Assembly: GCA_030637455.1 (NCBI GenBank)
Contig: DAOWGL010000179.1
Span: 1-11,660, forward strand
Source: Candidatus Nitrosopumilus sp.
GTDB taxonomy: Archaea; Thermoproteota; Nitrososphaeria; Nitrososphaerales; Nitrosopumilaceae
DNA: 11,660 nt
Reading direction: 5' to 3'
Shown here piece by piece: positions 3,672 through 10,665 of the stretch; the stretch's first letter is position 1; each line of letters opens with the position of its first letter. The notes below the pieces were generated by a model that was not told where the DNA came from, made no database searches, and worked only from the letters and a program-made list of their open reading frames with translations. A program made the translations under genes and the position numbers.

Positions 3672-5486
3672 TTAACTAAGTTTAGGCACGAAAATGTAGA
3701 TGATTGCAATTATTTCTAATCTACCAAAGATCATTAAAAATCCCAAGACGATTTTTGTTGCAGGATCTGTATCAAAATCAATTACTCCTGCAGACAATCC
3801 TCCTGTGGTAATTACTCCAGCAGCTTCAAAAAATGCATCTTGGAATGGGACATCCTCTATTGCTGCAAGGTGCATTCCTGTAACTGCTGAAATTGTAGGA
3901 AATAATGCTAGAATAATGAGTGTAGAAATTACTTCTTTTTTTGCTTGAGTTGATAGTTCTGCACGTTTTACTTTACTGAGTAATGCTCTGACATCTCTAA
4001 GATGGAATATTCTGAATATTTTCAAGCCTCCTGCTGTAGAGAATCCACATCCTCCTATGAACATCAAAATTATCAGAATGGTGTGTGCTCCTCCGTTTAA
4101 TCCTGCGAGACTTTCTTGTTGCAGTCCTGCAGTTGTACTAGCTGATACTGAATAAAATGCACTCAACATTGGATCTAATCCACTTATTACAATAAACAAA
4201 ATAGTTGCACTTCCTAAAATTGCAAAGTATGTCAAAACTTCTTTTCCAAGTTTTGGTGATAGGAATTTTTTTCTTACAAATGCATAATGGAATGTAAATG
4301 GTAATGCACCTAGTATCATTGCACCCATTAAGATAACATGCTCTTGCCATAGTAACCCATCAAGAATTGTGGATGTGGGTAAGAATCCTCCTGTTGAAAG
4401 AGTACTCATGGCCAATGAAAAATTATCAATAATATTTCCTTCATTGAAAATATGCAACAATGATGCAACAATTACAATGTAAATTGAAAAGATGACTGTG
4501 ATGGTTAAGAACAGTTCTTTCATGTGAAGGGTTCTTCCAGATATGAAACCTCTCATTGATTGTAATTTTGACTCTGGATAAAATGCTGTAATTACCAAAT
4601 AAATGAAACTCATTCCTCCTACGAGCTGTGTATAGCTGCGGAAGAATGTGAAACTTTGTGTAAGTTCTTCTGGTTCATCAAATAGAGATATTCCGCCTGT
4701 TGTAAAACCTGCAGCACTTGAAAAGAATGCATTACTAAATACCTCTATACTAGTTTCATCACTTGGAAACACGTACAGATACGGTATTGTTCCAAACAAT
4801 GACAGCAAAAATAGGCTCGCAAATACCAAAATTGATGCCTGTTGTAAATTCAGGCTAGATTTTTCACCATAAGAATTCAGAAAGAACCCTGTAACCAGTA
4901 AGAGGACCGTTGTAAGGTAAATTCCTGTAGCCGTTAATGGGTCTTCTAATAATGTCGCAACAATTGCTGGCACCAGTAACAATACCCCTGCAAATTGTAA
5001 CACAAACCCGAGATTTCCTAAAACTGCTTTTACTGGTGGACTCAAAAGACGCGGAGCCGTAGCTGTGGCATCTCGTATAACATTTGCAATGGTTGATTGA
5101 AAAATCATTCCCATCACTTGGTTTTTCCTTGATAGGACTGGTAGTTTTCTGATATTGTTATCTCTCATTTTGTGTAATGCATCTTGCAATGTTGATTTTT
5201 CACTAATTGTAATTAGAGGTGTGCTCATGACATCTTTCAGTGATGTAGCTTCTGCGTAAACTGTAACATCACTAACTTTACTTAGAATATCTTCATCTGT
5301 AACAATTCCGACAGGGAGATTATCTTTATCTGTAACAACAATGTCATCTGTTTCATAGTGACGTAACATTCTGGCTGCTTCTCTGGTTTGTGTATCTAGT
5401 CCGAGAATCAGTACATCTTTGTCCATGTACTTTGTAACGGACTTGCTAAGAACATATGATACTGCACGTTCTGGATTAGTTGACAT
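3672..5486 (-). CDS. TrkH-type K+ transporter with N-terminal CBS pair
   Basis: A 604-residue fusion. Residues about 17-140 hold two CBS repeats (TDDIVVTDKDNLPVGIVTDED and NIRKLPVLSRKNQVMGMIF mark their ends), together a Bateman module that usually binds adenine nucleotides. From about 150 to the end is the TrkH/KtrB potassium-channel-like transporter. Its four pore loops are visible: AAGFTTGG (258-265), STLSTGG (361-367), SASTTAG (448-454) and AAGVITTGG (555-563), plus the family's terminal GRLE (588-591). It should move K+ (possibly with Na+ or H+) inward across the cytoplasmic membrane. Trk/Ktr systems normally use a separate RCK subunit (TrkA/KtrA). None is seen here, so I infer that the CBS module may act as built-in gating control. 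The start is the ATG at 5486, with a TATA box about 25 nt upstream. Confidence 0.9.
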   Translation of the reverse strand: MSTNPERAVSYVLSKSVTKYMDKDVLILGLDTQTREAARMLRHYETDDIVVTDKDNLPVGIVTDEDILSKVSDVTVYAEATSLKDVMSTPLITISEKSTLQDALHKMRDNNIRKLPVLSRKNQVMGMIFQSTIANVIRDATATAPRLLSPPVKAVLGNLGFVLQFAGVLLLVPAIVATLLEDPLTATGIYLTTVLLLVTGFFLNSYGEKSSLNLQQASILVFASLFLLSLFGTIPYLYVFPSDETSIEVFSNAFFSSAAGFTTGGISLFDEPEELTQSFTFFRSYTQLVGGMSFIYLVITAFYPESKLQSMRGFISGRTLHMKELFLTITVIFSIYIVIVASLLHIFNEGNIIDNFSLAMSTLSTGGFLPTSTILDGLLWQEHVILMGAMILGALPFTFHYAFVRKKFLSPKLGKEVLTYFAILGSATILFIVISGLDPMLSAFYSVSASTTAGLQQESLAGLNGGAHTILIILMFIGGCGFSTAGGLKIFRIFHLRDVRALLSKVKRAELSTQAKKEVISTLIILALFPTISAVTGMHLAAIEDVPFQDAFFEAAGVITTGGLSAGVIDFDTDPATKIVLGFLMIFGRLEIIAIIYIFVPKLS

Positions 5487-8437: not shown

Positions 8438-8460
8438 ACGGTTTGATTAAAAAAACCGTT
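8434..8460. promoter_or_regulatory. Nested inverted repeats over regulator start (candidate operator)
   Basis: TCAAACGGTTTGA (8434-8446) is a perfect 6-bp-arm palindrome around one base. AACGGTTT (8437-8444) also forms a perfect 8-bp inverted repeat with AAACCGTT (8453-8460), spacer 8 nt. The TTG start of the regulator gene and its predicted transcript start fall at 8437, so a bound protein would block initiation. A third AAACCGTT occurs at 8670-8677. Confidence 0.5.
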
Positions 8461-8467
8461 AATTAAA
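8459..8467 (-). promoter_or_regulatory. TATA box of the winged-helix gene
   Basis: On the minus strand TTTAATTAA is centred 26 nt before the TTG start at 8437, supporting both the unusual start codon and a leaderless transcript. The inverted repeats lie between this box and the start. Confidence 0.45.
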
Positions 8468-8498
8468 TCAGTTTATTTGATATACTTTCTATGGGTAA

Positions 8499-8681
8499 CT
8501 GCAAGAAATACAGAGCAAGACTAGCACCATAAAGATTCATGGCACTACAAGACAACGACTGGTAAAACATGGTGCAAAAGATCATACCAATGGTGATTTG
8601 TATCATCTAAAGTTTGCCTCAAAAAGAGTTTGTATTGTTAATTGGTATCAGCATTCCATTTTGAATGTCAAACCGTTTTAA
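8499..8681 (+). pseudogene. Relic of a ribbon-helix-helix-like small gene
   Basis: A 60-codon open frame with no ATG or GTG start. Its middle reads SKTSTIKIHGTTRQRLVKHG (from 8514), which resembles the N-terminus of archaeal ribbon-helix-helix antitoxin-like proteins of the form (M)xKTTTIKIHxxTRxRLxxHG, from memory. The codon expected to be the initiator is CAG at 8511-8513. The continuation AKDHTNGDLYHLKF looks like a damaged version of the usual helix-2 part, after which the similarity is lost. I read it as a decayed gene, with no partner toxin left nearby. Chance similarity is possible because the match is short. Confidence 0.35.
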
Positions 8682-8823
8682 TCATTCAAAATTAGAACGA
8701 ATGGTATTCAGTATATTCCCAATCTAACCAATTAACACTATTTTGTAGGGTTTCTTGAAAATATATTTTTGTAAATCTAGAGTGTTTTTCGTAGCAAATC
8801 ATTTACTGCCTTGGAATAACTGT

Positions 8824-8901
8824 ATGTGGTATTTTCTTTTTGTATCATTTTGGACTGGAATTGCCTTATTTACTTATCTATACTATCTTCAATCATTATA
8901 G
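8824..8901 (+). CDS. Possible 25-residue hydrophobic membrane peptide
   Basis: ATG at 8824 opens a frame of 25 codons rich in Phe, Trp, Tyr and Leu (MWYFLFVSFWTGIALFTYLY start), enough for one membrane helix and little else. An A/T-rich TATA-like stretch (about 8758-8769) would place a transcript start near 8790, giving a leader of about 34 nt with a GGA shortly before the ATG. Short hydrophobic frames arise easily in T-rich sequence, so this is only a candidate. Confidence 0.2.
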   Translation: MWYFLFVSFWTGIALFTYLYYLQSL

Positions 8902-9093
8902 TTACTCGTCTTCCCATGGTCCAATTCACCACTCATTGTATTAATACGGCATCAGATTTTTCATAGGTGAATTTTACATATGGAAATTATCTAATCCATC
9001 TTATTATGATTTACAATATTTTCCTATTTTTCTTGAAATAAATCATGCTAAATGTTAAATAGTTATTTGTTCTATACTATATGATGTCGTTAG

Positions 9094-9100
9094 TTATAAA
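9094..9100 (+). promoter_or_regulatory. TATA box of the candidate ncRNA
   Basis: TTATAAA, with a second TATA-like stretch TATACTATA at 9073-9081. The two would start transcription near 9123 and 9103 respectively. The first would drop the 5' GCGC arm and leave the 3' tail free for another pairing. Confidence 0.4.
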
Positions 9101-9104
9101 ATCT

Positions 9105-9215
9105 GGCGATTAGACCGCGCTACCCCGCAGAACGAAAAAGGCAATCAGGCGTTTAGACGTTTGACCACGAGAGGAAATCTCTCAGAGTTCTGCAGTTAGG
9201 GGTTTGCGCCTTTTT
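9105..9215 (+). ncRNA. Candidate structured non-coding RNA
   Basis: A GC-rich island (58 of 110 bases G or C in 9101-9210) in very AT-rich surroundings. Its two ends pair: GCGC 9117-9120 with 9206-9209, CCCC 9123-9126 with GGGG 9199-9202, and GCAGAAC 9127-9133 with GTTCTGC 9187-9193. Inside are two hairpins, 9145-9151 with 9158-9164 (7 bp, two G-U, loop 9152-9157) and GAGAG 9169-9173 with CTCTC 9179-9183 (loop GAAAT), making a three-way junction. A T tract (9211-9215) follows the last stem. TATA-like elements lie at 9073-9081 and 9094-9100, predicting starts near 9103-9105 or 9122-9123. It has no open frame of note and is not a tRNA, 5S, SRP or RNase P RNA that I can recognise. Coordinates are the outer estimate. 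Confidence 0.55.
9206..9215 (+). terminator. Stem-end plus T-tract terminator of the candidate ncRNA
   Basis: GCGCC followed by TTTTT, directly after the closing stem of the ncRNA candidate. Archaeal transcription commonly stops at U tracts. It is also positioned to insulate the RNA from the convergent purP gene, whose stop is at 9277. Confidence 0.4.
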
Positions 9216-9276
9216 GATTTCTTTAAAAATAATGTTGTAATTTTATGTATGAATATTGTAATTTTGAATATTTTAC

Positions 9277-10368
9277 TCAAGTAACGATTTCATCTAAACG
9301 GTCTTCTTCTTGGGCCCGTTTAATTTCCATGGCAATTCTTCTACCAACCCCGAATGTTTGACCATATTGATATTTTGTATATGGGCTAGTTGTTGCAACA
9401 ATTGGATTTCCTGGAACTCTTAATGATACATCGTATACGATTAATTCTAAATCTTTTGTAATTACACTTTGTAATGAAAATGGACCAATAATTCCTGGGG
9501 CATATTCTTTCTTTACTGCTGCCACAAATTTGTCTCCCATTTTGAGTACTTTTTCAAGTAATGATTCTCTGATACTTGCAGGAGTATGCCCTACTTCGAT
9601 ATTTTGTAAATCAATATCCATCTCTAATTGTTCTTTTGCTGGAAGCGCATTGTAATCATGAATGTTCGTTTGTAATCTTCTCTCAATTCCTATAAAATCA
9701 ACTTGATTTGAAATTGGAGTGTGGAAGAAATTGAAATTCATGTATGTTCCTATTGCTAATTCTTCGATGCTTGCTTTTTCAAGATCCTTTCTTGCAATTA
9801 CTCCTTGCTTGATTTTTTCTTCAGATTTTGTTACATAATCTTTGTATGATGATACGTTAAAGAATGCCCTTTCTAGTGGTCTCTTTTTTTCTTGAACTTT
9901 GACAATACATGGCTTGTTAATCCGTTTAGGATCTTTGAATAATTTAGGATATTTTATTCTGGCTTTTTCTAAAAGATAGTATTGTCCTTTTTTGGCAGTT
10001 CTCTCTTCTGCTTGGAATAGTTTTCTATTTCCAAATATTGGAACTTTGAATGAATTCTCAATCGTTTTGTATCCCAAGTATACCGTTAGTGATCTGTGAG
10101 GAACAATAATTGTACTGGAATCTCGTAATTCTTTTTGATATTTGGCTGATGCCATATCTTTGAATTTATCTAAAACTGTAATCTCATCTGCAATACGTCC
10201 AAATCTTTGGTAAGGTCCTTCTCGCCCTTTTTGACAAAAGACTCTGGTTTGAAAATCTTCATCTTTGGCCCCATCCATTATTTCAAGTGCTGAGTGACTG
10301 CCAAGAACGCCTATTTTGACATCAGAATAATCATTGACTATTTTCTTAATCTCGGAACTTTTAATCAC
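9277..10368 (-). CDS. purP: FAICAR synthetase PurP (ATP-grasp)
   Basis: PurP joins AICAR and formate with ATP to make FAICAR, the step before IMP cyclisation in archaeal purine synthesis; it acts in the cytoplasm without folate. The protein is 363 residues, normal for the family. The N-terminus carries the characteristic IGVLGSHSALEIMDGAKDE (19-37) and CQKGREGPYQRFG (45-57). The ATP-grasp body follows, with metal/nucleotide-site segments near the end: PGIIGPFSLQ (291-300), YDVSLRVPGNP (312-322) and VGRRIAMEI (341-349). The start is GTG at 10368, two bases off an out-of-frame ATG. A TATA box (10391-10398) at 26 nt supports it and a leaderless mRNA. A near-perfect palindrome between the box and the start suggests regulation. 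No other purine gene is in the window. Confidence 0.92.
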   Translation of the reverse strand: MIKSSEIKKIVNDYSDVKIGVLGSHSALEIMDGAKDEDFQTRVFCQKGREGPYQRFGRIADEITVLDKFKDMASAKYQKELRDSSTIIVPHRSLTVYLGYKTIENSFKVPIFGNRKLFQAEERTAKKGQYYLLEKARIKYPKLFKDPKRINKPCIVKVQEKKRPLERAFFNVSSYKDYVTKSEEKIKQGVIARKDLEKASIEELAIGTYMNFNFFHTPISNQVDFIGIERRLQTNIHDYNALPAKEQLEMDIDLQNIEVGHTPASIRESLLEKVLKMGDKFVAAVKKEYAPGIIGPFSLQSVITKDLELIVYDVSLRVPGNPIVATTSPYTKYQYGQTFGVGRRIAMEIKRAQEEDRLDEIVT

Positions 10369-10392: not shown

Positions 10393-10398
10393 ATATAG
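10391..10398 (-). promoter_or_regulatory. TATA box of purP
   Basis: On the minus strand CTATATTA is centred 26-27 nt before the GTG at 10368, selecting the GTG start and predicting a leaderless transcript. Confidence 0.5.
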
Positions 10399-10463
10399 CT
10401 AATTTTTGATTATCCAGATCGGTTGATCAATAGACTTTTTTCAATTAGTATTTGATTCAAATC

Positions 10464-10607
10464 ATGTTATACTCTTTTGAACTACAACTGCTTGGAGCAA
10501 TTCTTCTTCCTGTCATGCTTGTTGCAGGTATAGTCATGTGGTATAAACGAAGAAAATCTGATCAAGAATTATCTGATTCTGACAATGAAAATTCTCCTAA
10601 TCTCTAG
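10464..10607 (+). CDS. 47-residue single-pass membrane protein
   Basis: A short ORF (MLYSFELQ start) with one strong hydrophobic helix (about residues 9-27, LLGAILLPVMLVAGIVMWY) followed at once by KRRK and an acidic, Ser/Asn-rich tail. By the positive-inside rule the tail is cytoplasmic and the N-terminus outside. The organisation and codon use look like a real gene, and small single-helix proteins of this kind are common subunits or regulators of membrane complexes, but no family is recognised. It is divergent from purP and upstream of ubiX, 55 nt away. Confidence 0.55.
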   Translation: MLYSFELQLLGAILLPVMLVAGIVMWYKRRKSDQELSDSDNENSPNL

Positions 10608-10643: not shown

Positions 10644-10665
10644 CTGTACATTGTAAGATTAATTG

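Follow-up and report, generated by a model that had tools for sequence, protein, structure and literature searches.

What kind of gene is the short GC-rich element that lies next to a convergent PurP-type gene in an otherwise AT-rich contig of Candidatus Nitrosopumilus sp., and does it belong to any known class of RNA? The window analysed here, i.e. the whole stretch of 11,660 nucleotides, has a GC content of 32.5%, whereas positions 9105-9215 reach 51.4%. Just eight of the 11,549 possible segments of 111 nt are as GC-rich, and all eight overlap the element. A preliminary description had proposed an undescribed structured RNA at these positions with a GC content of about 53%; the figure proved somewhat too high, but the strong contrast with the surrounding DNA is real and the largest in the window.

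The RNA gene and its place in the window

The fold of positions 9105-9215 has a free energy of -40.0 kcal/mol (z -3.5), which was reached by none of 200 shuffles, and the reverse strand is likewise stable (z -3.3; 0 of 200 shuffles). The gene itself is longer: it begins near 9084 and spans about 130 nt, the fold making up its 3′ portion (Table 1). The start at 9105 given in the preliminary description must be moved about 21 nt upstream; it cuts through a hairpin at the 5′ end. In the window, helix P1 consists of GCGC (9117-9120) paired with 9206-9209 and of ACCCC (9122-9126) paired with GGGGT (9199-9203). The convergent neighbour, which we take to be PurP, belongs to a neighbour family found at 25 loci. 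About 600 nt upstream of the RNA gene (8438-9054) are devoid of ORFs of at least 60 aa, and elsewhere in the window (3672-5486, minus strand) a single protein combines CBS domains with a TrkH-type cation transport domain.

Table 1. Features of the RNA gene and its convergent neighbour (positions in the window).
Feature	Position	Strand	Remarks
TATA box TTAAATA	9055-9061	+	29 nt ahead of ATG; 100% identity in 17 orthologues
Nine-codon ORF MSLVIKSGD, probably leaderless	9084-9113	+	ATG TCG TTA GTT ATA AAA TCT GGC GAT TAG
Hairpin P0, within ORF	9087-9109	+	TCGTTAG (9087-9093) with CTGGCGA (9103-9109)
Helix P1, 5′ strand	9117-9126	+	begins 33 nt past A of ATG
Helix P1, 3′ strand	9199-9209	+	pairs with 9117-9126, covariation
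Helix P2, 5′ strand GCAGAAC	9127-9133	+	covariation
A-rich junction strand J2/3 (GAAAAAGGCAA)	9134-9144	+	strongly conserved inside genus, not in other genera
Hairpin P3	9145-9164	+	sequence variable, pairing conserved
Hairpin P4 GAGAG-GAAAT-CTCTC	9169-9183	+	outer pairs covary, inner GAG/CTC nearly invariant
Helix P2, 3′ strand GTTCTGC	9187-9193	+	covariation
T run 3′ of P1	9211-9215	+	probable transcript end region, from sequence
Convergent neighbour, PurP-type protein	9277-10368	-	Pfam DUF1246 and DUF1297

Seventeen orthologues of the window copy (type A; the class and type letters A, B and D are labels coined in the present analysis) delimit the gene. The ORF is 96% identical among them and the fold 85-97%; just downstream, identity drops to at most 50%. 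The 5′ end, which the preliminary description missed, has an invariant TATA box, flanked by DNA of 70% (9020-9054) and 78% (9062-9083) identity, with about 50% at 8880-9020. The terminal T run of the preliminary description exists in the window, but it is not a family-wide feature: identity over 9211-9216 is 67% in the same orthologues, and in 36 of 182 copies the run is absent or short, i.e. never longer than two or three within 45 nt of the fold. A U-tract end is therefore not a defining feature of this RNA.

Distribution of the RNA

A blastn search with positions 9090-9230 over 80 genomes gave matches (E ≤ 1e-3) in 46 of the 48 genomes of the genus and no match below E 0.05 in the 32 genomes outside it. 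Seventy full copies were aligned (alignment A1; nine of 79 aligned rows were left out, namely seven partial copies and the non-members L083 and L084) and converted to a covariance model, R1, which matches 222 of 250 genomes of the family, among them 127 of the 131 good-quality ones, in 18 of 22 genera. The conservation in related genomes for which the preliminary description had called is thus extensive. A matched family genome usually carries one to three copies, and the genera lacking a match among the sampled genomes include g31, g33, g34 and g46. Over 201 genomes of the order, R1 matched 53, of which 52 belong to the family; the sole match outside (L240 of genome G364; E 0.058) was discarded, as it overlaps a tRNA-Gln found by ARAGORN. 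A broader model, R2, was run on 300 genomes of the class (E 0.1), of which it matched 160, and on 398 of the phylum (E 0.01), of which it matched 63; here too, all matched genomes belong to the family. Searches over more than 40 genomes were run with stricter filters, by which some weak matches are lost. A scan of named genomes with a P4-P2 pattern returned 116 stretches, and among the 80 of these that were listed the titles are mostly Nitrosopumilus, Nitrosarchaeum or Thaumarchaeota, with two Nitrososphaeraceae. Within the sampled genomes the RNA appears restricted to one archaeal family, and no credible occurrence was found outside it.

Covariation, helix by helix

In alignment A1, 92.6% of the cells in predicted pairs can pair, as against 36-45% when the strands are slid relative to each other. 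Four of five covariation measures exceed all 500 shuffles; the exception is the count of further pair types, for which 311 of the 500 shuffles are as high. A family-wide alignment of 101 copies (A2), fitted to R1 and hence leaning towards it, has changes on both sides in 28 of 35 pairs (388 such cells) and 89% of cells paired (38-48% when slid), and its observed values on all five measures are reached by 0 of 500 shuffles. The stem covariation that the preliminary description left to be checked is accordingly present, including that of the three helix segments by which it joined the 5′ and 3′ ends and of the two internal hairpins that correspond to P3 and P4.

P1 comprises about 10 bp with extensive compensation (A2: both-side changes in seven of nine pairs, 95.5% of cells paired). 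P2 has both-side changes in six of seven pairs and 96.3% of cells paired (A2), GCAGAAC/GUUCUGC being replaced by GUAGAC/GUCUAC and GCAGAGC/GCUUUGC in other genera. All seven pairs of P3, whose sequence is free, show both-side changes (A2). In P4, the outer G-C pair becomes A-T in 13 of the 70 copies of A1, and the two inner pairs are G-C in all 101 copies of A2. The inner part of P4 (GAGG...UCUC) looks like a Shine-Dalgarno sequence; for the idea that P4 (GAGGNNAUC) might engage the anti-Shine-Dalgarno, a pattern of the 16S tail was sought in six genomes and gave 0 matches. P0 is the weakest helix family-wide, with 69% of cells paired (A2). On A1 it undergoes the exchanges CG/UA and AU/UG/UA. 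When each of 123 unique ORFs is compared with shuffles of its own interior, 121 are more stable than the shuffle mean (mean z -2.5).

A pseudoknot between AAAAAGGC (9135-9142) and GCCUUUUU (9208-9215) was also considered. The pairing is possible, and helices of at least 6 bp occur in 26 of 43 copies of the genus (about 12% with shuffled tails). In other genera, however, they occur in one of 58 copies (about 4% with shuffled tails), and we therefore reject the pseudoknot as a feature of the family.

That the element is a structured RNA can be regarded as practically certain. The structural reading of the preliminary description was correct in this respect and incomplete in others, since it missed the additional hairpin P0, the nine-codon ORF and the paralogues at other loci.

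A nine-codon reading frame ahead of the fold

For an unbiased test of the ORF, loci L001-L085 were searched with positions 9117-9215 only, so that the promoter and the ORF were left out of the query. This search matched 74 loci, 69 of them with upstream DNA, and in 64 of these 69 an ATG is found 31-35 nt before P1. In all 64 the first in-frame stop falls at exactly codon 10, the other two frames being closed at scattered places, and in 59 of them TTAAATA is found exactly at -29. The probability of such an arrangement of ATG and stop is 0.003 per composition-matched random sequence, though the 64 cases do not amount to 64 independent events, because the copies are related by descent. The five copies without the ATG (L021, L024, L039, L049, L060) have TTG or GTG in frame at codon 2, which leaves eight codons.

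The same arrangement is seen in a wider set of 187 copies, from which L240 of G364 and an overlapping minus-strand match in L230 had been removed before the ORFs were counted. Taking the TATA-like match nearest the expected place, 185 of the 187 copies have one, and in 153 of the 185 an ATG follows exactly 29 nt on. Of these 153 ORFs, 143 have nine codons and the others 8 (five), 10 (three), 12 (one) or 4 (one); length variants such as MQKDVKSTAR and MPIVPTVD stay in frame. P1 begins 33 or 34 nt after the A of the ATG in 144 of 171 copies, and 3-4 nt after the stop in 161 of 182. Over 182 copies the stop is TAA in 98, TAG in 47 and TGA in 37, in a count that preferred starts giving nine codons, three copies having no such ORF.

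Two kinds of divergent copies may be mentioned here. L236 (G180:C1:696132-696261) is a degenerate AT-rich copy (24% GC) in which the ORF is broken by an early stop. A further group (L175, L177, L180, L194, L198, L199, L224, L227, L228), with peptides of the MFTKPQKMA type and others, differs in the sequence of P0; the start codon is ATG or GTG, and taking it as the start gives an ORF of nine codons.

Upstream of 816 ordinary genes at the loci analysed, the exact TTAAATA is rarer within 60 nt than in shuffled DNA (16 vs 30 occurrences). Eight of these 16 stand at 27-29 nt, a small sample in which the peak fits a leaderless arrangement.

Judging from these sequences, the start, length and stop of the ORF are conserved, and it is very probable that the ORF is under selection. 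What is kept is the length, the start and the stop, and mostly not the peptide. Over 86 unique ORFs the three codon positions have similar entropies, with no excess at the third, and hence there is no ordinary conservation of a peptide. The pN/pS ratio is 3.0 in type A, 4.1 in class D (see below) and 1.5 in the MPM group, as against 0.5-0.6 in the B, MRKD and MQKD groups, where it must be kept in mind that all groups other than D were set by peptide motif, which lowers pN; the low values could indicate some peptide constraint.

These data bear on two alternatives. The gene may be a tiny mRNA that yields the nonapeptide, a signal or effector, as its product and whose 3′ UTR, the fold, has a stabilising or regulatory role. 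The conserved start, stop and length of the ORF, the ratios of 0.5-0.6 and the occurrence of like peptides in different classes (MRKDVNPID and MQKRVNYTA) speak for it; the missing third-position excess, the ratios above 1 in A, D and MPM and peptides as highly dissimilar as MSLVIKSGD, MFTKPQKMA and MLVQCRMMD make it rather unlikely. We consider equally improbable the opposite possibility of a purely non-coding structured RNA in which the ATG and the stop are by-products of the promoter initiator and of P0. P0 does have covarying pairs and accounts for part of the 5′ conservation, and the copies share common ancestry. However, such by-products would hardly explain why every one of the 64 copies with the ATG has nine codons, why TAA, TAG and TGA interchange, why length variants mostly remain in frame (8, 10 or 12 codons), why all five copies without the ATG have TTG or GTG at codon 2, or why class D has the ORF though its P0 sequence differs.

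Paralogues and genomic context

Class D was exposed by a pattern built on the front end of the gene (TATA-ATG-8 codons-TRR-spacer-GCGYG), which matched 26 times, in 18 of 24 mostly complete genomes, and never in the control. Members of this class (e.g. MQNRVNYNE) keep P1 and have another core. On the 201 genomes of the order it scored 58 hits, some of them nested within a single place. All fall in 39 of the 52 family genomes; the 149 others have none, and the reversed control hits none of the 201. One of the 58 (G247:C12:43732) looks like a chance match by its sequence. Nine sense codons and a stop are present in 18 of 18 aligned class D copies, which were gathered with a pattern or model including the ORF, so that the ORF is there no independent test. 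A model of class D, R3, has matches at E ≤ 0.01 in 147 of the 250 family genomes; it is strong in genera g1, g29, g35, g37 and g39, and its weaker matches are cross-hits to the main class. R2 reaches class D copies too, consistent with a common origin. The genome of the window itself holds type A (in the window), type B (split across two contig ends) and, at C57:12839-12962 (L272, L423), a class D paralogue whose ORF reads MQNRVNYKE ahead of the same P1 and a different core. L147 (G278:C184:10092-10215 and 10398-10523) holds a tandem pair, spaced by about 300 nt, in which both copies have a TATA-like box and an ORF of their own (nine and eight codons).

According to a scan of one example per neighbour family, type A faces the PurP-type gene, type B has a short-chain dehydrogenase gene on one side and a gene for a small protein without Pfam family on the other, class D lies between the chorismate synthase and EPSP synthase genes, and other copies face a TFIIB-type gene. 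The genes flanking types A, B and D are on the strand opposite to the RNA, and copies recur next to the same neighbour families across genomes. In some genera, 38 loci (e.g. L138:2239-2931) have a same-strand family of ORFs of about 215-236 aa, without Pfam match, some 600 nt downstream.

The occurrence of several copies per genome could point to a dispersed repeat or a miniature mobile element. Given that the same neighbours accompany the copies across genomes, that identity collapses immediately downstream of the gene, that pairs covary and that the P4-P2 pattern used on the named genomes had 0 matches in a viral contig collection, this origin is hardly credible.

The surroundings of the gene also bear on a cis-acting role, in which the RNA, as a leader or an attenuator of riboswitch type, would carry a leader peptide and control transcription past the fold. 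Its architecture invites this comparison: as in leader-peptide attenuators, of which the trp type is an example, a short ORF overlaps a hairpin and more hairpins stand just 3′, followed here by a T run after a GC-rich stem. Differently from them, the present RNA mostly lacks a downstream gene in the same direction, and its ORF has no run of one codon. Among copies with enough flank (mechanical ORFs; L236 left out), the nearest downstream ORF of at least 80 aa is encoded opposite to the RNA in all 24 class D copies and in 158 of the 184 main ones; the remaining 26 main copies, where it is on the same strand, and the same-strand family at 38 loci are what attenuation could draw on. In the window, the next plus-strand ORF of at least 60 aa starts at 10663, beyond the minus-strand purP, and the T run is missing from some copies. 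We therefore hold attenuation to be very unlikely. A riboswitch ahead of a gene was considered separately for type B and rejected, the coding-like conserved stretch downstream being the 3′ end of a convergent gene.

Relation to known RNAs

No Rfam 15 family matches the element in a search of the window up to E 5, and ten loci from other genera and classes, searched up to E 1, returned just an unrelated tRNA; the proposal of an undescribed RNA withstands this comparison. ARAGORN finds no tRNA or tmRNA gene in the window, and inspection of the alignments by eye disclosed no ACA box or C and D boxes of guide RNAs.

There is a likeness to dual-function small RNAs such as bacterial SgrS/SgrT, in that a small RNA gene, here probably a stand-alone one, carries a short ORF plus an RNA domain. 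The present ORF differs in being usually nine codons long, probably leaderless, of near-fixed length and poorly conserved sequence, and in standing at a set distance from a covarying fold. Archaeal dual-function small RNAs have been proposed (PMC12482152). The same source describes, from Ribo-seq in a haloarchaeon, ribosome-associated sRNAs of Haloferax volcanii without coding evidence; by that description they resemble the present RNA as archaeal small RNAs proposed to act on or through the ribosome. Another structured, previously undescribed RNA from a marine archaeal group is Tan1 (PMC5069720). It differs in its length of 229 nt and in its source, the marine group II Euryarchaeota, and the passages on Tan1 mention no nine-codon ORF.

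A search of a collection of open-access papers disclosed no description of the RNA. In the main text of a survey of 104 candidate RNAs (PMC2864571), the terms Nitrosopumilus, Cenarchaeum, Crenarchae and Thaumarch do not occur. The N. limnia genome paper speaks of "a conserved noncoding RNA with 93% identity to N. maritimus", the identity of which the passage does not give (PMC3043068). This could be the present RNA or some known RNA, and an earlier notice is thus possible.

A proposed mode of action

Sequence comparison supports the promoter, the start, length and stop of the ORF, the structure, the distribution and the paralogy. The reading that we prefer, at a probability of roughly 0.45, is that of a new RNA family in which a probably leaderless nonapeptide ORF is joined to a structured RNA, and translation gates the folding or activity of the latter. 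According to this proposal, the ribosome would be part of the RNA's mode of action; transcription from the AUG, a leaderless start, actual translation, gating and action in trans are its inferred components.

A stand-alone gene with its own archaeal promoter would give an RNA of about 130 nt starting at or next to the AUG, with nine codons and a stop, then 3-4 nt, then a domain made of P1, P2 and a three-way junction with P3 and P4. As the ORF overlaps P0, initiation would have to open this hairpin. From the geometry of the ribosome, once the stop codon occupied the A site, the foot of P1 would lie at the mRNA entry. The overlap of ORF and P0, together with the position of P1 at the ribosome entry, suggests that translation probably switches or protects the folded domain, which may then act in trans on a partner, be it the ribosome, a protein or other RNAs.

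A bolder form of the proposal, in which we have clearly less confidence, sees the RNA as a mimic of a leaderless mRNA. The nine-codon ORF would serve as a ruler that parks or times the ribosome against P1, the RNA would report or regulate ribosome availability in trans, and paralogues with different cores would share a ribosome-docking front end; this would be a categorically new kind of archaeal RNA.

Significance

The RNA is present in Nitrosopumilus and its relatives, ammonia-oxidising archaea that are described as ranking with the ocean's most abundant microorganisms (PMC7490402; similarly PMC6593220). A near-universal RNA gene of one family that has no match in Rfam points to a gap in what is known of the basic biology of these archaea. 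If the ORF is translated, selection would hold a reading frame to its length more than to its peptide, so that the act of translation itself would be the signal, and the RNA would offer a simple handle on leaderless translation in archaea.
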